This document shows, piece by piece, positions 13,316 through 20,385 of a stretch of DNA of 64,000 nt. Each line of letters opens with the position of its first letter. Position 1 is the stretch's first letter. Origin of the DNA: Pseudorhizobium banfieldiae (GTDB taxonomy: Bacteria > Pseudomonadota > Alphaproteobacteria > Rhizobiales > Rhizobiaceae); contig NZ_FO082820.1 in the NCBI RefSeq assembly GCF_000967425.1, positions 1,178,001 to 1,242,000 of the forward strand, read 5' to 3'. Position numbers and translations under genes: made by a program. The notes under the pieces are model-generated. The model searched no databases, was not told the origin of the DNA, and was given only the letters and a program-made list of their open reading frames with translations.

Positions 13316-14407
13316 GTGAGCGTGACGCCACAGGACCGGCGATTCATGGCGGCTGCCATGCGGCTGTCGCGCTGGCACACCGGGCTGACCGCCACCAATC
13401 CCTCTGTTGCCGCACTTGTCGTGAAGGATGGCGCCATCGTCGGCCGCGCCGTGACCGCACCTGGCGGCCGGCCCCATGCGGAAACGCAGGCGCTCTCCGA
13501 AGCCAGCGAGAAGGCGAGGGGGGCGACCCTCTACGTCACGCTCGAGCCCTGCTCGCACCACGGCAAGACCCCGCCCTGTGCCGATGCCATCACCGCCGCC
13601 GGCGTCGCCCGCGTCGTCGTCTCGCTGACCGATCCCGATCCGCGCGTTTCCGGCCGCGGCCTTGCCATCCTTCGCGATGCCAGCATTGTGGTGGAAAGCG
13701 GCGTCCTCGAGGAGGAGGGGCGCAGAACCCTCGCCGCCTACCTCATGCGCCAGACGAGGGGCCGGCCGCGAGTGACTCTGAAGCTTGCGGTTTCCGCGGA
13801 CGGCATGATTGGCAGGAGAGGCGAGGGCCAAGTCGCCATCACCGGTCCCGCCGCCCGCGCCCAGGTGCATGTGCTGCGCGCAGAGATGGACGCCATCCTC
13901 GTCGGCATCGGCACGGCGCTCGCCGACGATCCTCAACTTACCTGCCGAACGCCAGGTCTCGAAGCCCGCTCGCCGCTCCGCATTGTACTGGATCGCCGGA
14001 TGGAACTGCCGCCGATCTCGAAGCTCGTGCGATCGGCCAGCAACGTGCCGGTACTCGTGGCGTCCATTGCTGGTCCCTCGGCATCATCTGAGCTGAACGC
14101 GCGCCGCGCCGCGCTCGCCGATGCCGGCGTCGGGCTCCTCGAAACCGAGACGCTCTCCACGTTCCTCTCGGGGCTCGCTGTCCGCGGCATTTCCTCGCTG
14201 CTGGTCGAGGGTGGCGCCGGCGTCGTCCGGGGCTTTCTCGCAGCCGGCCTCGTGGACCGCATCCTCCTCTTCGAAGGCGCAGCCACGGTGGGCGAGGGTG
14301 GCCTTGCATCGCCGCTCACGCGTGCCGATATGCCGGACGGCTTCCGCCTCCAGCGCGAATATGCGTTCGGGCCCGATCGGCTCTTCGACTACGAAAGGTT
14401 TTCCTGA
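13316..14407 (+). CDS. ribD: Riboflavin biosynthesis deaminase/reductase RibD
   Basis: A 363-aa bifunctional enzyme carrying out the second and third steps of riboflavin synthesis from the GTP-derived pyrimidine. The N-terminal deaminase domain (about 1-145) has the zinc motifs HAETQALSEA and LEPCSHHGKTPPC. The C-terminal reductase domain (about 150-360) begins RPRVTLKLAVSADGMI. Translation starts at GTG 13316, five bases after the nrdR stop. The stop overlaps the ribE start by one base, so the two are translationally coupled. Confidence 0.95.
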   Translation: MSVTPQDRRFMAAAMRLSRWHTGLTATNPSVAALVVKDGAIVGRAVTAPGGRPHAETQALSEASEKARGATLYVTLEPCSHHGKTPPCADAITAAGVARVVVSLTDPDPRVSGRGLAILRDASIVVESGVLEEEGRRTLAAYLMRQTRGRPRVTLKLAVSADGMIGRRGEGQVAITGPAARAQVHVLRAEMDAILVGIGTALADDPQLTCRTPGLEARSPLRIVLDRRMELPPISKLVRSASNVPVLVASIAGPSASSELNARRAALADAGVGLLETETLSTFLSGLAVRGISSLLVEGGAGVVRGFLAAGLVDRILLFEGAATVGEGGLASPLTRADMPDGFRLQREYAFGPDRLFDYERFS

Positions 14408-15030
14408 TGTTCACGGGTATCGTCACCGATGTCGGCACGGTTTCCAGCGTCATGCCGATGGATGAGGGCGTGCGGCTGAGGATTGCCACCGCCTATGACC
14501 CGAGGACCATCGAGATCGGCGCCTCCATCGCCCATTCCGGCGTCTGCCTCACCGTGACGGCGCTGCCGGGCGAGGGGGAGAATGCCCGCTGGTTCGAAGT
14601 CGAGGCGTGGGAGGAGGCGCTCAGGCTCACCACCATCGCTGGCTGGAGCGAGGGCACGCGCGTCAACCTGGAGCGGGCGCTGAAGATCGGCGATGAACTC
14701 GGTGGCCACATCGTCTCCGGCCATGTCGACGGCAAGGCCGAGATCCTCTCGGTCGAGCCGGAAGGCGAGGCCGTCCGCATCCGCCTGCGCGCGCCGGAAG
14801 CGTTCGCCCGCTTCGTTGCCCCGAAGGGTTCGGTCGCGCTGGACGGCACCTCGCTCACCGTCAACGCCGTCGACGGCGCCGATTTCGATGTGCTCCTCAT
14901 CCGCCACACGCTCGCCGTCACCACCTGGGGCGACCGCAAGCCCCGCGACTTCGTCAACTTCGAAGTCGACACCATGGCGCGCTACGCCGCACGGCTGGCG
15001 GAATTTCCGGTAAAAGCGTTGGAAGCCTGA
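14407..15030 (+). CDS. ribE: Riboflavin synthase, alpha chain
   Basis: A 207-aa enzyme that dismutates two 6,7-dimethyl-8-ribityllumazine molecules to riboflavin. It begins with the invariant MFTGIV and has two lumazine-binding beta-barrel repeats (about 1-95 and 98-195). The second repeat carries GHIVSGHVDGKAEI and VALDGTSLTVN. Its partner ribH is 4.4 kb downstream rather than adjacent. The gene end converges on the GST gene with an 18-base gap and no clear terminator. Confidence 0.95.
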   Translation: MFTGIVTDVGTVSSVMPMDEGVRLRIATAYDPRTIEIGASIAHSGVCLTVTALPGEGENARWFEVEAWEEALRLTTIAGWSEGTRVNLERALKIGDELGGHIVSGHVDGKAEILSVEPEGEAVRIRLRAPEAFARFVAPKGSVALDGTSLTVNAVDGADFDVLLIRHTLAVTTWGDRKPRDFVNFEVDTMARYAARLAEFPVKALEA

Positions 15031-15048
15031 CGCGGCCCGGCCTCATCC

Positions 15049-15699
15049 TCAGTCCTTCGCGCTGGCGAGGAACACCGCCCGCTGCGCCTCGAAAGCCCGC
15101 CGGTAGGCGGGACGGGCCTGACCGCGCGTCACATAGGCCGCAAGGTTCGGAAACTCCTCCAGAAGCCCCGCGCCCTCCAGCCGCCGCAACACGGTCACCA
15201 TCAACAGGTCCGCCGCGCTGAAGGCGCCGTCCAGCCACTCCGCATCGCCGAGCCGGGCGGAAAGCTGGCCAAGGCGCCGGCGGATGCGATCTTCCACCAT
15301 GCCGAGGCGCTCCTGGTACCAGCTCCGGTCGCCCTCCTGGTACCCCGCCATCTCGCGCTCGACGATCACCGGCTCCATGGTGCTGAGCGCCGCAAACATC
15401 CAGCTGATCGCCCGTGCACGGGCCTCCGAATCCTTCGGCAAGAGCCCCGGATGCTGCTCGGCGATATGCAGCACGATCGCTCCGGTTTCGAACAGGGCAA
15501 GCCCGTGCTCTTCATAGGTCGGGATTTGCCCGAATGGCTGGAGCGCCAGATGCGCCGGCTCCTTCATCGCCTGAAACGACAGCAGGCGAACTTCGTATGG
15601 TAACCCTACCTCTTCGAGCGCCCAGCGTACCCGCATGTCGCGGGCATGGCCCCGGCCGCGATCAGGTGAGCTTGCGAATGCCGTGATGGTGATGCTCAT
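15049..15699 (-). CDS. Glutathione S-transferase family protein, 216 aa
   Basis: An N-terminal thioredoxin-like domain (about 1-80; RVRWALEEVGLPYEVRLLSF, then the glutathione-binding PFGQIPTYEEHGLALFETGAI with the usual 'P..l' and ES/ET position), followed by an all-helical C-terminal domain. The likely role is cytosolic conjugation or reduction with glutathione; the substrate cannot be predicted. Start at 15699 has AGGAGG 7 bases upstream; a 30-codon extension exists but lacks a ribosome site. Divergent from the globin gene. Confidence 0.88.
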   Translation of the reverse strand: MSITITAFASSPDRGRGHARDMRVRWALEEVGLPYEVRLLSFQAMKEPAHLALQPFGQIPTYEEHGLALFETGAIVLHIAEQHPGLLPKDSEARARAISWMFAALSTMEPVIVEREMAGYQEGDRSWYQERLGMVEDRIRRRLGQLSARLGDAEWLDGAFSAADLLMVTVLRRLEGAGLLEEFPNLAAYVTRGQARPAYRRAFEAQRAVFLASAKD

Positions 15700-15869
15700 C
15701 CCTGCCTCCTGTGGTTTCCCGGAAGACGGCCGGCGAGGACGCATTCCGACATCCGGCGCCATCGGCGAAAGGCAGTCCGGCCGGGGCACGTCGTCGCAAC
15801 AGTCTCCCCCGCTCTTCGCAAACCCGCTGCGATCCCTTATCTAGGGCGCAACAGACAGGACCCGTTATC

Positions 15870-16337
15870 ATGCATCCCGATCTCAATGCCAGAGCGGCCC
15901 ATTCCGCCGCCATCCGCGAGCGTGCCGCCGCCGAGATGAAGGCGATCGGCGTCGACGAGGCGTTCATCTCGAAGCTCGTCAATACCTTCTACGGCCGCGT
16001 GCTGGCCCACCCCGAACTTGGCCCGGTCTTTGATGCGCGGCTTGCAGGCCGCTGGCCGCAGCACATGGAGAAGATGAAGGCCTTCTGGTCTTCCGTCGCC
16101 TTCCGCAGCGGCGCCTATGGCGGCAAGCCGGTCCAGGCCCATCTTGGCGTCGCCAACATGACGCCGGACCTCTTTCCGCAATGGCTGTCGTTGTTTGCTG
16201 ACACCCTCGATGACATCGCCCCGAGCGAGGAAGCCAAGGCCTGGTTCATGGCGACCGCCGAGCGCATCGCCAGGAGCCTGACGCTGTCGCTTTTCTACAA
16301 TCCCGCACTCGACGATCCGGCCCTGCGCCGAAGCTGA
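15870..16337 (+). CDS. Group III truncated hemoglobin, 155 aa
   Basis: A small heme protein of the 2-over-2 globin fold. Group III features are the helix-B segment LVNTFYGRVLAHPELGPVF, the helix-E block HMEKMKAFWSSVAFRSGAYG and AHLGVANMTPDLFPQWLSLF, where the His of 'AHL' is the probable proximal ligand region. Such proteins bind O2 or NO and are often linked to nitrosative stress or microaerobic life in rhizobia and Campylobacter, but the role here is not proven. The start follows ACCCGTTATC with a weak ribosome site. A terminator follows at 16350. Confidence 0.88.
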   Translation: MHPDLNARAAHSAAIRERAAAEMKAIGVDEAFISKLVNTFYGRVLAHPELGPVFDARLAGRWPQHMEKMKAFWSSVAFRSGAYGGKPVQAHLGVANMTPDLFPQWLSLFADTLDDIAPSEEAKAWFMATAERIARSLTLSLFYNPALDDPALRRS

Positions 16338-16349
16338 TCGATCCTCGGC

Positions 16350-16373
16350 GGCCGCCCGCGCAAGGCGGCCTTT
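16350..16373 (+). terminator. Rho-independent terminator of the globin gene
   Basis: GGCCGCC pairs with GGCGGCC around CGCGCAA, followed by TTT, 12 bases after the globin stop. It insulates the promoter that starts immediately after it. Confidence 0.65.
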
Positions 16374-16374
16374 G

Positions 16375-16404
16375 CTTGACTTCCATGCCCGAAGGGCCCA
16401 TGTT
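16375..16404 (+). promoter_or_regulatory. Candidate promoter of the first leader-peptide/Rnk transcript
   Basis: CTTGAC at 16375-16380 matches the rhizobial -35 consensus. Seventeen bases later CCATGT (16398-16403) keeps four of six positions of the CTATAT -10 element. Transcription would start about 7 bases on, at 16410-16411, which is the ATG of the 19-codon upstream ORF. The transcript would therefore be leaderless, as known for the trp leader peptide in Sinorhizobium. Inferred by eye only. Confidence 0.5.
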
Positions 16405-16410
16405 CGAGCC

Positions 16411-16470
16411 ATGTTGACCGAGCGCCTCGATAACCGTTTCAAGCGGGTGTGCCTCATCGCAGGCACCTGA
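16411..16470 (+). CDS. Candidate leader peptide A (19 aa, ends CLIAGT)
   Basis: The small ORF reads MLTERLDNRFKRVCLIAGT and ends with TGA at 16468-16470. It sits alone in the 291-base gap between the globin gene and the first Rnk-like gene, 158 bases before the latter. A second short ORF upstream of the paralogous gene (17078-17140) ends in the same CLIAG, encoded by an identical 14-base block (TGCCTCATCGCAGG) in the same frame. In A this block lies inside a perfect 6-bp stem GTGCCT/AGGCAC. No Shine-Dalgarno is seen; leaderless initiation is plausible. I infer a regulatory leader peptide, not a functional enzyme. Confidence 0.6.
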   Translation: MLTERLDNRFKRVCLIAGT

Positions 16471-16489
16471 CCCCCGGCTCGGTCGCGTC

Positions 16490-16509
16490 GCGCCCCGGCC
16501 GTGGGGCGC
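16490..16509 (+). other. GC hairpin downstream of leader peptide A
   Basis: A perfect 7-bp stem GCGCCCC / GGGGCGC with loop GGCCGT, 19 bases after the leader-peptide stop. An overlapping weaker pairing, GCCG (16498-16501) with CGGC (16515-16518) followed by TTTT, would exclude it. A translation-dependent switch is conceivable but unproven. Confidence 0.45.
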
Positions 16510-16628
16510 ATAGGCGGCTTTTCCGCGAAATCCGGCGAAGCCTGCCCTTGGGGGCGACAGTCAATTTTCCACATCAACAGTCACCGCAGCGCAATCTCGC
16601 CTGCGTACAAGTCAGCGAGGATCCAGCA

Positions 16629-17081
16629 ATGGCTCCCAACAAGAACACACGCCGCAAGCCGGCCATCAATGTCACCCAGTCGGATCACGAGCGGCTGTCG
16701 CGTCTCGCCGAGGCGCATGCCGATCGCAATCCCGACGTCTCCGAAGAGCTTCTGGCCGAACTGGACCGCGCACGCGTCGTGCAGGACGGGAAGATCGGCG
16801 CAGATGTCGTGCGCATGGGCTCGACCTTGCGCTTCACCAGCGATCTTGGCGAGGACCGCACCGTCACGCTCGTCTTTCCGGGCGAAGCGGATATCGCAGC
16901 CGGCAAGATTTCCATCCTCACCCCTATCGGTGCGGCCCTGATCGGGCTATCGGCGGGCCAGTCGATCGACTGGACGGCGCGAGACGGCCGCGTCCACCGC
17001 CTCACCGTAGAGACTGTGCAGGCGCCGGCGGAAAGCCAGGCCGCCTCTGCCGCCCCAGCGGAGCTGCGGCCGGCGTCATGA
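16629..17081 (+). CDS. rnk: Rnk-like GreA/GreB C-terminal domain protein (first paralogue), 150 aa
   Basis: A protein of the nucleoside-diphosphate-kinase-regulator (Rnk) family. A short N-terminal helical part (about 1-45, ITVTQSDHERLSRL style) replaces the long Gre coiled coil. It is followed by the FKBP-like GreA/GreB C-terminal domain (about 55-135) with VRMGSTLRFTSDLGEDRTVT, KISILTPIGAALIGL and the final strand HRLTVETVQ. Rnk proteins bind RNA polymerase near the secondary channel and lack the transcript-cleavage acidic tip. It is preceded by a leader with a CLIAG-ending ORF. Its stop overlaps the start of leader peptide B. Confidence 0.85.
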   Translation: MAPNKNTRRKPAINVTQSDHERLSRLAEAHADRNPDVSEELLAELDRARVVQDGKIGADVVRMGSTLRFTSDLGEDRTVTLVFPGEADIAAGKISILTPIGAALIGLSAGQSIDWTARDGRVHRLTVETVQAPAESQAASAAPAELRPAS

Positions 17082-17140
17082 TCCGCGTTCTGCCGCCTTG
17101 CCGCCTCTCGCTCTACGGAGGCTGCCTCATCGCAGGATAG
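17078..17140 (+). CDS. Candidate leader peptide B (20 aa, ends CLIAG)
   Basis: The ORF reads MIRVLPPCRLSLYGGCLIAG and stops with TAG at 17138-17140. Its ATG overlaps the stop of the first Rnk-like gene (ATGA at 17078-17081), which allows translational coupling. The last five codons before the stop encode CLIAG, using the same 14 bases as leader A. The second Rnk-like gene starts 90 bases downstream. A strong hairpin begins three bases after the stop. The N-terminal halves of A and B differ, so the conserved part is only the terminal motif and its stop, the usual look of an arrest or attenuation peptide. Confidence 0.6.
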   Translation: MIRVLPPCRLSLYGGCLIAG

Positions 17141-17143
17141 TTG

Positions 17144-17173
17144 CCCCTGCACCGCGTTTCGCGCGGGCAGGGG
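17144..17173 (+). other. Strong hairpin downstream of leader peptide B
   Basis: CCCCTGC pairs with GCAGGGG and, after a single bulged A, CCGCG pairs with CGCGG around loop TTTCG, giving 12 base pairs. It starts 3 bases after the stop of leader peptide B and has no T-run, so it is more likely a translation or stability control element than a terminator. Confidence 0.6.
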
Positions 17174-17230
17174 ATCTCCCGTTCATGATCAAATGTGCGC
17201 GCTCCCCCCGGAGCAAAGGAGAACTGCGAT

Positions 17231-17770
17231 ATGTCCAAGGACAACATCATCCTCACCACGAAGGATTTCACCATACTGGAAGCCATCTCCGACAACCCGC
17301 GGGTCAGGACGGACCTGCTCGTCCCGCATATCCGCCGCAAGCTCGGTGCTGCGATCGTTGTTTTCCGCCAGGACCTGCCGGAAGGGGTGGCGAGCGTCAA
17401 CAGCCGCGTCACCTTCCGAGTCGATGGCGGTGCGACCGATACTCGGGTTCTCTCGACCGGACAGGTCGAGGCGCCGGTCGGCATGTTCCTGCCGATCACC
17501 ACGCCGAGAGGCCTGGCGCTGCTAGGTCTTTCCGAGGGCCAGGAGGCGGTTGTGGACAATACCGACGGACGCGCGGAACGGATCGTACTCGAGAAGGTGG
17601 AATACCAGCCCGAAGCGGCACGGCGAGAGCGCATGGCTGCAAAGAGCGAGCCCGCCTCCACGCAGCACAAGCCGTTGCTTCGCGTGGTGTCCGGCGGCAT
17701 GAAGGACGTGCGCCGCCCCGTCCCAGTGATGTCGGACGGTTTTGACGACCCGGGCCCGTCGGCCGCTTGA
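17231..17770 (+). CDS. Rnk-like GreA/GreB C-terminal domain protein (second paralogue), 179 aa
   Basis: A divergent second copy of the Rnk-type architecture. A short helical N-terminus (about 1-50, LTTKDFTILEAISDNPRVRT) is followed by the GreA/GreB C-terminal domain (about 60-135) with VASVNSRVTFRVDGGATDT, LPITTPRGLALLGLSEGQE and RIVLEKVEYQ. An extra basic, low-complexity tail of about 45 residues follows and is absent from the first copy. GGAG lies 8-9 bases before the ATG. It is probably cotranscribed with the first copy. The likely role is modulation of RNA polymerase, inferred from the family. A terminator follows at 17791. Confidence 0.8.
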   Translation: MSKDNIILTTKDFTILEAISDNPRVRTDLLVPHIRRKLGAAIVVFRQDLPEGVASVNSRVTFRVDGGATDTRVLSTGQVEAPVGMFLPITTPRGLALLGLSEGQEAVVDNTDGRAERIVLEKVEYQPEAARRERMAAKSEPASTQHKPLLRVVSGGMKDVRRPVPVMSDGFDDPGPSAA

Positions 17771-17790
17771 GCCGCGCCAGCCTGGCATGA

Positions 17791-17811
17791 CGCGGGCCAG
17801 GAAGGCCCGCG
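17791..17811 (+). terminator. Terminator after the second Rnk-like gene
   Basis: A perfect 8-bp stem CGCGGGCC / GGCCCGCG with loop AGGAA, followed by TTT, 20 bases after the stop. Confidence 0.7.
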
Positions 17812-17837
17812 TTTCCATCAGAGTAAGAAGGAACAGC

Positions 17838-18734
17838 ATGTCTACGAACCTCACCCCGGCGCAAGGCACGCGCTCCACCGACTTCGCGCAGGGGCTCGCC
17901 TGGATGGGGCTCAGCATGGCCTCCTTCATCGGCATGTCGGTTGGCTCCCGCGAACTGGCGGCAACCCTTTCCATCCAGCAGGTGCTCTTCTTCCGCGCCC
18001 TCGTCGGCCTCTTCGTCATCCTCGCGCTCGGGCGGGCGCTGCTGCCGGAATTGCGCGGGCTGAAGATGGTCCGGCTGCATGTCCTGCGCAATGTGGTGCA
18101 CTTCTTCGCCCAGTATCTCTGGACGATCGGCATCGTGCTGCTGCCGCTCGCCTCGGTCTTCGCGCTCGAATTCACCATGCCGATCTGGGTCGCCTTCTTC
18201 GCCTTCCTGTTCCTGAAGGAAAGGCTGACGACGCCGCGCATCCTCGCCACCATCGGCGGCTTCATCGGCGTCCTCGTCATCGTCCGCCCCGGCCTCGGCA
18301 TGGTGGATCCCGCAGCCGGGCTGGTGCTGATCGCCGCCGCCGGTTATGGCCTGTCGCTTATCCTCGTGAAGCAACTGACGCGCGAGGTCTCGCCCGGCGC
18401 CATCGTCGTCTGGATGATCCTGATCCAGCTGCCGCTCGGCTTCCTCGTCTCGCTCACCGATTGGCGTCCCGTCAGCTTCACCGACATCCCGTGGATGCTG
18501 GTTGCCGGCATCGGTGCGCTCGCCGCCCACTACTGCCAGGCCCAGGCCCTGAAGCGCCTCGACGCCTCCGTCGTCATGCCGATCGATTTCCTGCGTGTGC
18601 CCATGGCCGCCGTCGTCGGCTACTACGCCTATGCCGAAGCCATCGACCTCTGGGTCTTCCTCGGCGGCGGCATCATATTATTCTCGAACTACCGCGCCGT
18701 CATGGCCGAGCGCCGGGCTGCGATGGCCGGATAA
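17838..18734 (+). CDS. DMT-superfamily (EamA) transporter, 298 aa
   Basis: An inner-membrane transporter with ten hydrophobic segments in two EamA repeats (about 15-145 and 155-290). Recognisable parts are AATLSIQQVLFFRALVGLFV, the repeat-1 end FLFLKERLTTPRILATIGGF ('lkErl...i.G') and repeat-2 ending YAEAIDLWVFLGGGIILFSN. Substrate unknown; paralogue of the DMT gene at 5065-5955 but clearly different. The ATG at 17838 follows AAGAAGGAA. Confidence 0.87.
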   Translation: MSTNLTPAQGTRSTDFAQGLAWMGLSMASFIGMSVGSRELAATLSIQQVLFFRALVGLFVILALGRALLPELRGLKMVRLHVLRNVVHFFAQYLWTIGIVLLPLASVFALEFTMPIWVAFFAFLFLKERLTTPRILATIGGFIGVLVIVRPGLGMVDPAAGLVLIAAAGYGLSLILVKQLTREVSPGAIVVWMILIQLPLGFLVSLTDWRPVSFTDIPWMLVAGIGALAAHYCQAQALKRLDASVVMPIDFLRVPMAAVVGYYAYAEAIDLWVFLGGGIILFSNYRAVMAERRAAMAG

Positions 18735-18825
18735 AGGGCTGCTTTCAGGCAGCATTCCTGGAGGGCCGGCTTTCCCTGTGGTCTCAGAGTGAGGGGCGAG
18801 GAACGTCCTTTACCGCCCGCCCGTC

Positions 18826-18850
18826 GTCATCCTCGGCTTGACCCGAGGAC
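18826..18850 (+). repeat. Palindromic intergenic repeat (REP/RIME-like) copy
   Basis: GTCATCCTCGGCTTGACCCG followed by AGGAC, with arms CCTCGG / CCGAGG around CTTGAC-like text. This 'GTCATCCTCGGGCTTGACCCGAGGA'-type palindrome is widely scattered between genes in Rhizobiaceae and related alphaproteobacteria. This copy lacks one G relative to the form I remember. Only one copy is seen in the window. Confidence 0.5.
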
Positions 18851-18925
18851 ATGGACGTCCGTTTCGACTAATTTCGCGACTTCAGGCGTGTATGCGTTGA
18901 AAGACCACTCTTCCTGGAGGGCAGC

Positions 18926-19126
18926 ATGAGCGGACACAGGGTCTATGGCGTCAGCGTCGCGAGCGTCTATCCGCTTTACGTGGCCAAGGCGGAGAAGAAG
19001 GGGCGGACTGGAGCCGAGGTCGACGAGATCATCTGCTGGCTGACCGGCCATGACCGCGACAGCCTGAAAGCGGAACTGGAGGCAAGTACCTCTTTCGAGA
19101 ATTTCTTCGCCAGGGCGCCGCGATGA
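18926..19126 (+). pseudogene. DUF2200 protein, N-terminal half (frameshifted)
   Basis: Encodes 66 residues starting MSGHRVYGVSVASVYPLYVA and including [20 protein letters not shown], the N-terminal half of the roughly 117-residue DUF2200 family. The frame ends at TGA 19124-19126 just after FFARAPR. The rest of the domain continues without a gap in the +1-shifted frame from 19123. The break is consistent with loss of one base in the codon before ATG AAC. GGAGGGCAGC gives a good ribosome site. It could be a real mutation, a sequencing error, or a split gene reinitiating at ATGA. Confidence 0.75.
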
Positions 19127-19275
19127 ACCCGTCGCGCAGCTTGATCAAGGGCGTCGTCTGCGGCGTCCGCGTCGAGGATATCGAAGAGCCGACCATGCGC
19201 GAGATACGCTATCTCGACAAGCTGGTCGATGAGCTCGCCAAGGGCAAGGCGATGGAGAAGATCCTGCGGGGATAG
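19123..19275 (+). pseudogene. DUF2200 protein, C-terminal half (frameshifted)
   Basis: Encodes 50 residues, [20 protein letters not shown] then [28 protein letters not shown] sequence ending EKILRG, the conserved second half of DUF2200. Its ATG overlaps the TGA of the first half (ATGA), so coupled reinitiation could yield two half-proteins. The family has no assigned function. I interpret the locus as one gene with a one-base deletion. Confidence 0.75.
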
Positions 19276-19308
19276 CGCTCAAAGCTTCGCGGATGCCGGC
19301 GCGAAGAA

Positions 19309-19446
19309 GTGCCGGTCTTCATCCTGGCCCAGGCGCTGCGGCATCCGGGGAGCAGCCATGCGGGAAAAGTGCTTGCCTTCCTGCCACCGCCGTGGTTTGA
19401 CCCGCGCCATTCCGATTTGCACGCCCTTTCCGCCAAGGTTGCCTGA
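19309..19446 (+). CDS. Possible small ORF overlapping the ribH start, 45 aa
   Basis: A GTG-started frame that reads [20 protein letters not shown] and ends HALSAKVA, with TGA overlapping the ribH ATG by one base. The frame is open from just after the DUF2200 stop and has plausible codon use. There is no strong ribosome site and I recognise no homologue. It may be a coupled leader ORF or a remnant. Listed as uncertain. Confidence 0.25.
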
Positions 19447-19901
19447 TGTCCGACACGTCCAAGCCCCATCTCCTGATCGTCGAGGCCCGTTTCTATGACG
19501 ATATGTCCGACGCGCTGCTCGACGGGGCGACCTCGGCGCTGAAGGATGCCGGCGCCACCTGGGATGTGGTCACCGTTCCCGGTGCGCTCGAAATCCCGCC
19601 GGCGATCGCCATGGCGCTCGACGCGGCTGAGAACGACGGCACCCATTACGACGGCTTCGTCGCGCTCGGCATGGTTATTCGCGGCGAGACATACCATTTC
19701 GATATCGTGGCCAACGAATCCTCCCGCGCCCTGATGGATCTTGCCGTCTCGGAATCGCTGGCGATCGGCAACGGCATAATGACGGTCGAGAACGAGGAGC
19801 AGGCCTGGGCGCGGGTGCGTCGCTCCGACAAGGACAAGGGCGGCTTTGCCGCACGTGCGGCGCTAGCGATGATCGCGCTGCGCGAAAAGCTGAATGGTTG
19901 A
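19446..19901 (+). CDS. ribH: 6,7-dimethyl-8-ribityllumazine synthase
   Basis: A 151-aa enzyme that joins the ribityl-pyrimidine with 3,4-dihydroxybutanone phosphate to make lumazine, the substrate of RibE, in an oligomeric shell. Motifs are [37 protein letters not shown] (phosphate site) and [21 protein letters not shown] with the catalytic His. Full length. nusB overlaps its end by 8 bases if the first ATG is used, so the two are coupled. No FMN riboswitch is visible upstream. Confidence 0.95.
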
Positions 19902-20385
19902 TCCGATGACGAACGACGAAAAACCGGCGGTGAAGCCCGCGAACCAGCGGGGTGCCGCGCGCCTCGCCGCCGTGCAGGCGCTCTACCAGATGGACGTCGG
20001 CGGCGCCGGCGTGCTGGAGGTGGTCGCCGAATACGAGGCCCATCGCCTCGGCCAGGAACTCGACGGCGACACCTACCTGAAGGCGGACGCCTCCTGGTTC
20101 CGCTCGATCGTCTCCGGCGTCGTGCGCGATCAGGTGAAGATCGACCCGGTTGTGCGCTCGGCCCTGCAGAACGACTGGCCGCTGTCGCGGCTGGATTCCA
20201 CGCTCCGCGCCATCCTGCGCGCCGGTACTTTTGAGATCCTCGAGCGCAAGGATGTGCCGATCCCGGTGATCGTCACCGAATACGTCGAGATCGCCCAGGC
20301 CTTCTTCGAGGGCGAGGAGCCGAAGATCGTCAACGCGGTACTTGACCGGATCGCCAAGCAGGTTCGCGGCCAGGCGGCAAAATAG
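19894..20385 (+). CDS. nusB: Transcription antitermination protein NusB
   Basis: A 163-aa all-helical RNA-binding protein that, with NusE/S10, binds boxA in rRNA leaders to prevent termination. Seen: [19 protein letters not shown] at the start of the fold and [20 protein letters not shown] with the final FVNGVLD-type motif (here [14 protein letters not shown]). Start may be ATG 19894 (overlapping ribH) or ATG 19906 (MTNDEKPAV); the second is equally plausible. Confidence 0.93.

Follow-up and report, generated by a model that had tools for sequence, protein, structure and literature searches.

In the 64,000 nucleotides of Pseudorhizobium banfieldiae DNA analyzed here (the window; contig NZ_FO082820.1, positions 1,178,001 to 1,242,000 of the forward strand), two tandem genes for Rnk-like proteins are each preceded by a short upstream open reading frame (uORF), and both uORFs end in the same residues, C-L-I-A-G, directly before or one codon before the stop. 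The locus raises the question of which part of this shared leader is conserved, the peptide, the RNA or both, and what it would do to rnk. Based on the comparisons reported here, uORF translation, the motif and the fixed spacings are supported, and the cassette would probably be a built-in ribosome pause that helps to set the amount of Rnk.

All features of the locus lie on the forward strand. Leader 1 starts with a sigma70-type promoter (16376-16404), composed of a -35 TTGACT (16376-16381), a 17-nt spacer and a -10-like CATGTT (16399-16404), the end of which lies 6 nt before the ATG of the putatively leaderless uORF A (16411-16470), encoding MLTERLDNRFKRVCLIAGT and a stop. Within this uORF, an internal Shine-Dalgarno (SD)-like hexamer, CGGGTG (16444-16449), begins 18 nt before the Gly codon and is followed by the C-L-I-A-G codons (16450-16464); hairpin A (CCCCC...GGGG, 16471-16506), which is placed by conservation and is weak on its own sequence, comes directly 3' of the stop, and Rnk1, with its Rnk_N and GreA_GreB C-terminal domains, is encoded at 16629-17081. 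The ATG of uORF B (17078-17140, MIRVLPPCRLSLYGGCLIAG and a stop) overlaps the Rnk1 stop in the sequence ATGA (17078-17081). In this case, the internal SD-like hexamer is GGAGGC (17117-17122), the C-L-I-A-G codons occupy 17123-17137, and hairpin B (17144-17173) starts 3 nt after the stop, which places it 9 nt from the first base of the Gly codon; the divergent Rnk-like protein Rnk2 is encoded downstream, at 17231-17770.

The first-pass annotation had proposed these two ORFs as leaders of paralogous Rnk-type genes, and both are present as described. Gene 1 matches the Rnk_N and GreA_GreB domains (Pfam) and scores 162 bits against PRK05753, above the cut-off of 109 bits, and gene 2 has no Pfam match and scores 61 bits, under that cut-off, as a divergent relative; by sequence, both proteins match solved Rnk-type structures. 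Also, in a segment of the window (13316-20385), ribD/ribE-like genes on one side and ribH/nusB-like genes on the other flank a globin-like gene, rnk1, rnk2 and a gene for an EamA transporter. Except for EamA, we take these names from recognition of the translations, and the globin-like gene, named by eye, has no Pfam match in the window.

The identical 14-base block that had been pointed out in both ORFs is confirmed. The 14-mer TGCCTCATCGCAGG is found exactly at 16450 and 17123 (16450-16463 and 17123-17136), in the same codon frame, and these two positions in the rnk leaders are the only exact copies on both strands of the 4,577,425-base genome. With one mismatch, three more places appear genome-wide, and a control with the pattern written backwards gives 0. 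Within the window, three matches are found at up to 2 mismatches, a number reached by 9 of 100 shuffles and thus not unusual; the weight of the 14-mer comes from its genome-wide uniqueness and from the relatives, not from the window count.

When leader 1 is aligned with three homologues from relatives, the uORF is gap-free and of equal length with interchangeable stops, the -35 region and the stretch past the stop are conserved, and the spacer between uORF and rnk shows little conservation. A covariance model built from six leader-1 sequences (R1) and run on 80 relatives found leader 2, absent from its training, at E 0.013-0.018, close to the false matches (0.04-0.08); in another genome, it detected new leaders, with E values of 7e-7 and 1.5e-4. 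In the first wave of matches, 74 of 87 had a motif uORF, and one match (G404, before an rpoH-like gene and with a T run) was judged false. A second model (R2), trained on 12 leaders including the two of the window, found matches in 92 of 247 genomes and 50 of 109 genera of the family at E 0.001. For the order, at E 0.02, 56 of 397 genomes had a match, with the weakest matches judged false; for the class, the number was 6 of 385, including the window's own genome and two judged false. Among the loci scanned, 224 of 249 unique R2 matches have an in-frame motif uORF, and their first downstream match is Rnk1-like in 141, Rnk2-like in 76, a universal stress protein (Usp) in 1 and none in 6. By manual reading, the 25 matches outside the motif pattern comprise 11 sense leaders with a variant end whose stop is in the usual position, 1 sense match without a stop and 13 antisense or hairpin-only matches.

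For the codon and spacing statistics, a set of 247 distinct leaders was used, chosen with a pattern for the motif ending and a stop. It joins the R2 matches to loci selected by protein, with identical ends removed (209 + 38 rows), after leaving out the 6 matches without Rnk or Usp (2 judged false, 3 divergent leaders and 1 before a TauE gene). The R2 and protein-selected sets overlap, because many protein-selected loci are probably from species whose genomes were also found with the RNA model. By peptide pattern, the leaders fall into 181 of type A and 66 of type B.

Among the rnk genes of rhizobia and related bacteria that were compared, the majority have this cassette of uORF and hairpin. 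A search for short motif ORFs upstream of rnk, which the first-pass annotation had suggested, gives a positive answer: among the best 80 of 103 rnk loci, chosen only by their protein similarity, a 10-40-codon ORF with the motif at its end lies at most 400 nt upstream in 67, versus 2 of 80 for the reverse complement, 3 of 80 for reversed and 1 of 80 for shuffled sequences, and 2 of 78 for downstream DNA. In the remaining 13, an ATG located 34-36 nt after TTGAC opens a short ORF with a variant end (for example, CPIPGI, HPIADL or CLIVGI), and the hairpin starts 1-2 nt after the stop in all of them. Carriers include Mesorhizobium, Stappia, Aureimonas, Bosea, Chelativorans, Phyllobacterium and Maricaulis. 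A few alphaproteobacterial rnk genes are without the cassette. Absence of the ORF or breakage of its frame in related genera, which had been named as counting against the proposal, is found in a minority only: one of 12 strong rnk relatives (G052, L015) has the promoter and a short ORF in place with the motif absent, 5 of 12 further rnk loci of the class or order have none (4 have a motif uORF, for example MQIRRGLLRFRFHGGQLLAGL and a stop, and 3 a variant in place), and one of the 249 R2 matches keeps the motif with the stop lost. Another rnk locus of the class has the leader MDRLRTSFDRIVLITGS and a stop.

By comparison, the uORF has the marks of a coding sequence. The stop codons of the 247 leaders, a set selected for having a stop, are TAG in 106, TGA in 101 and TAA in 40. 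Moreover, at the codon level, the variable N-terminal codons of type A show a synonymous to non-synonymous ratio of 75/160 in frame (51 independent pairs), in comparison with 36/179 and 38/172 in the other two frames. Both the interchangeable stops and the doubled in-frame synonymous change support translation. With respect to its start, 105 of 116 single-ATG leaders have a TTGAC that starts 34-36 nt upstream of the ATG, and 10 of the 116 show an SD-like sequence ahead of the ATG; from these distances, the promoter sets the start and the leader-1 uORF looks leaderless. The type B starts overlap a stop codon of another frame in 55 of 66, which in the window is the Rnk1 stop.

The C-terminal motif directly before the stop, following a variable N-terminus, is conserved across genera. 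The ends of the 247 leaders can be written as P (155) or L (87), then I (207), L (24) or V (14), then A (237) and G (233) or E (14), with 0-1 residue before the stop, the codons up to and including Gly numbering 15-21; ends with D, V, P or other residues at these positions also exist. The Cys and Leu of the shared C-L-I-A-G end are not invariant in this set, and the motif is wider than first described.

Past the stop, a stem is formed with many different base-pair types across the leaders. In a sample of 120, this hairpin has a mean z of -2.25 versus mononucleotide shuffles, and pairing begins at the first nucleotide past the stop in 94. In the window, hairpin B is unusually stable (z -4.9), and hairpin A has an unexceptional stability (z -0.46, equalled or exceeded by 59 of 200 shuffles), a different fold being preferred once more 3' sequence is included. 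The first paired base lies 9 nt from the first base of the Gly codon in 195 of the 232 leaders with one residue after Gly. In the leaders without this residue, the hairpin is found 3 nt later past the stop, at the same 9 nt, in 10 of 15, most of the 15 being related type B leaders and thus not independent cases. As the 9-nt distance tends to be kept when the stop moves, the hairpin seems to be placed relative to the motif codons.

Conservation of this kind could also belong to an RNA element, in which G/C blocks located within the uORF and past its end would form alternative helices or a protein-binding site, in the manner of a classical attenuator, and translation would act as the switch. The alternation of G-rich and C-rich segments fits such an element, as does the association of CTN at codon -3 with GCA and of CCN with GCG, and folding is somewhat stronger in the type A leaders than in their synonymous versions (fraction of shuffles with equal or higher stability, 0.30-0.34). 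However, the type B leaders are less folded than their synonymous versions (0.63-0.71; in this test, the types number 177 and 70), convincing covariation inside the uORF is absent beyond the A/B split, and by inspection the post-stop hairpin is apparently too stable to swap for short alternatives. Based on this, we consider an RNA element unlikely as the explanation. Two particular folds were also set aside: a small stem-loop in the uORF end (TGCCY..ATCGC..RGGCA), appealing in single sequences and for the codon association mentioned above, because the synonymous-shuffle test gives the opposite result for type B and no covariation past the A/B split is detected by the MI scan; and alternating attenuator helices, as a main model, since by fold inspection the post-stop hairpin looks much stronger.

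A different kind of constraint is observed in the codons themselves. The Ala codon is GCG in 135, GCA in 101, GCC in 1 and GCT in 0 of the 247 leaders, in comparison with a background of downstream reading frames in which GCC and GCT make up about half of the Ala codons; the Gly codon is GGA in 164, GGC in 66, GGT in 2 and GGG in 1, and the choice of Ile codon is likewise far from free. At codon -6, the 165 Arg codons are CGG in 99, AGG in 58, CGA in 4, CGT in 3, AGA in 1 and CGC in 0, the background of CGC being 0.38. Moreover, irrespective of the residue encoded, 243 of 247 leaders have a purine as the third base of codon -6; the third base of codon -4 is a pyrimidine in 241 of 247. With up to 60 leaders sampled per window of codons, the mean energy of the duplex between codons -6 to -4 and the anti-SD is -4.83 for type A versus -2.23 after synonymous recoding, and -8.25 versus -6.35 for type B; from codon -7 to -4, the pairing is better than that of synonymous alternatives in both types. 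When positions -27 to -6 relative to the Gly codon are searched, 231 of 247 leaders have the start of their best SD-like hexamer at -17 to -19. The limits on the Ala (GCR) and Gly (GGA or GGC) codons are accounted for neither by the SD nor by a small hairpin inside the uORF. The conserved unit is more than a peptide, since it includes third positions, the internal SD-like sequence and the hairpin at fixed spacing. The original reading as a peptide leader is supported in that the uORF is conserved, and it is incomplete in that the RNA features belong to the conserved unit as well; the stalling, the sensing of stress and the control of Rnk synthesis that it proposes are putative.

These constraints bear directly on a pure nascent-chain arrest, in which the P/L-I-A-G end alone would halt the ribosome and the mRNA features would be secondary. 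P/L-I-A-G is the most constant amino-acid stretch of the leaders, and the SecM-type end R-A-G-P is loosely alike by eye, arrest at RAGP and RAPP ends being described in PMC10987492. Nonetheless, a peptide acting alone would need neither the constrained third positions at codon -6, codon -4, Ile, Ala and Gly nor the conservation of SD strength and hairpin distance, and we regard this explanation as rather improbable.

An attenuator that senses amino-acid supply, for example of Cys or Pro, appears highly improbable. Cys and Pro are found at fixed places in 173 and 155 of the 247 leaders, respectively, but both are replaceable (Cys by F, S, Y, V, H and others, and Pro by Leu), no run of a single codon is present, no conserved T run follows and the downstream genes are not biosynthetic for Cys or Pro. 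Codon-supply attenuation was rejected on this codon composition and on the missing T run. Also, intrinsic termination was rejected: past the hairpin no conserved T run is observed in the leaders, only 32 of 247 having TTTT at a distance of 25-60 nt from the stop, and no intrinsic terminator (hairpin and T run) is evident in them. In the window, no T run directly follows hairpin A or B, the TTTT at 16519-16522 being 12 nt past hairpin A. With respect to a frameshift fusion into rnk, the frame of rnk is open as far back as the uORF stop in some leaders only.

The cassette is also found before other genes. One copy, MKISDTFPHSSFRICSLAEH and a stop, precedes a double universal stress protein gene (PF00582; L074:2896-4040). 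A leader divergent from that of rnk, MTSVFP..GILFRVCPIAGN and a stop, is found with close variants in three genomes (L172:2169-2246 and L174:2874-2952 on the forward strand, L191:1947-2025 on the reverse strand); in two of them it precedes a homospermidine synthase gene, identified in one case by comparison of the protein with PDB entries (E about 1e-237), and in the third no recognizable homospermidine synthase gene lies behind it. Another leader, ending in GVRPIAGV and a stop, is located before a TauE/SafE gene (PF01925; L207:1113-2091, reverse strand). The copies before Usp, homospermidine synthase and TauE genes suggest that the cassette is a portable control element. As separate observations, a protein that by eye resembles the TauE/SafE one is encoded downstream of rnk2 in some other genomes, and a variant end, RPKAG followed by R or L and the stop, with a hairpin (L191:4652-4727, reverse strand; L174:203-278, forward strand), precedes an apparent small basic protein (MATRKGNREGRKPKQPKEK...). 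Conserved sequence without regulatory function, carried along with rnk, would agree with the 217 of 224 copies that travel with this gene, but the excess of in-frame synonymous change even in variable N-terminal codons, the tendency of the hairpin to hold its distance when the stop shifts and the copies before unrelated genes make it the least credible explanation of all.

The explanation that we favor, and consider somewhat more probable than its negation, is that a leader acting in cis to pause ribosomes lies in front of both rnk paralogues. According to this model, RNA polymerase would start at or beside the A of the uORF ATG in leader 1, and ribosomes would load on the leaderless AUG; in leader 2, ribosomes would come from Rnk1 through the ATGA overlap. 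Ribosomes would then translate 15-21 codons, through the conserved Gly, and at P/L-I-A-G a single ribosome would meet three influences, the SD-like sequence behind, the nascent C-terminus within and the G+C-rich hairpin ahead. When Ala occupies the P site, the end of the SD-like hexamer is located 9 nt upstream and the hairpin starts at 12 nt, counted from the first base of the P-site codon; by general ribosome geometry, one ribosome would contact both. With the stop within one codon, the ribosome would dwell there, and the dwell time would set how much transcription or translation reaches rnk, through a Rho-, decay- or polymerase-coupled step. With respect to the first of these, the spacer to rnk has no clear Rho signature, being only mildly C-rich (C 0.33, G 0.25). 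The pause itself, the direction of its effect and the signal that it reads are what we infer from the arrangement.

A broader proposal, which we put forward tentatively as a minority possibility, is that these leaders form a new class, in which anti-SD contact, nascent motif and hairpin act at fixed distances and the state of the translating ribosome is read out onto the RNA-polymerase-binding Rnk factors, with feedback by Rnk being possible, and, by copying of the cassette, onto genes of stress (Usp) and polyamines (homospermidine synthase). No account of a uORF-hairpin leader of rnk is present among the matches listed from the open-licence PubMed Central literature, and the cassette is apparently undescribed so far. 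A 2015 review calls the cellular role of Rnk unknown (PMC4598747). With a shared leader that looks made for holding or timing a ribosome, a possible sensor of translation is connected to a factor that competes on RNA polymerase. The cassette is also a natural example of a combination of anti-SD contact, nascent peptide and mRNA hairpin that was apparently selected as a whole. The question of the Rnk leader is open to small reporter constructs.

Finally, the leaders can be compared with several known systems. The rnk leaders of Rfam (RF01771 from Enterobacteria and RF01772 from Pseudomonas) are, like the present ones, directly upstream of rnk, and together with the greA leader/GraL they share the layout of a cis leader with a strong hairpin before rnk or greA. 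However, they end in an intrinsic terminator, whereas the leaders reported here have a translated uORF and no conserved T run, and the Rfam covariance models give no match over a leader in the window and 9 leader loci. The greA and rnk genes rank high as leader-regulated genes, with terminator-type rnk leaders described (PMC2965389), and GreA is reported to autoregulate through its own leader (PMC6829880). Outside the class, a motif uORF is found at 0 of 26 rnk loci, and in 8 others, 1 fits a widened pattern, apparently by chance. In these outside-class leaders, a terminator-like hairpin of -15 kcal/mol or lower is present in 21 of 26 versus 2 of 78 dinucleotide shuffles, and in 0 of 26 when the search is made inside rnk or, likewise 0 of 26, further upstream; with a looser cut-off 25 of 26 pass, yet 27 of 78 shuffles also do. 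As a positive control, the Rfam rnk leaders are matched by 4 of the 16 outside-class loci tested. Strong terminator-like hairpins at most 170 nt upstream of rnk (L327-L355) are also seen where the Rfam rnk-leader models give no match, and attenuation of rnk may extend past what Rfam covers.

A tiny leaderless ORF in a 5' leader is likewise known from trpL/peTrpL of Sinorhizobium meliloti (PMC10117765). In this case, trpL is part of the tryptophan attenuator, and amino-acid attenuators of the trpL and ilvL type have a regulatory codon run and a terminator, both of which are absent in the rnk leaders. The arrest peptides SecM, ApdA/ApdP and the RAPP/RAGP types also have a uORF with conserved C-terminal residues (PMC10987492), and a conserved translated uORF with fixed C-terminal residues is what the comparison of sequences finds here. 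Nonetheless, the rnk leaders are very short, end in P/L-I-A-G/E and not in RAPP or RAGP, do not precede sec or yidC genes, add the internal SD and the hairpin, and their arrest is only putative. A dnaX-type recoding site, like the rnk leaders, has an internal SD upstream and a hairpin downstream of the decoding center, the SD lying 8-11 nt before the slippery site (PMC6321510). By inspection of the column frequencies, a slippery heptamer was not recognized in the leaders, and where the dnaX-type site gives a second product, the rnk leaders have a stop codon. Ribosome pausing at internal SD sites is described for Caulobacter, which also has many leaderless mRNAs (PMC4117421).
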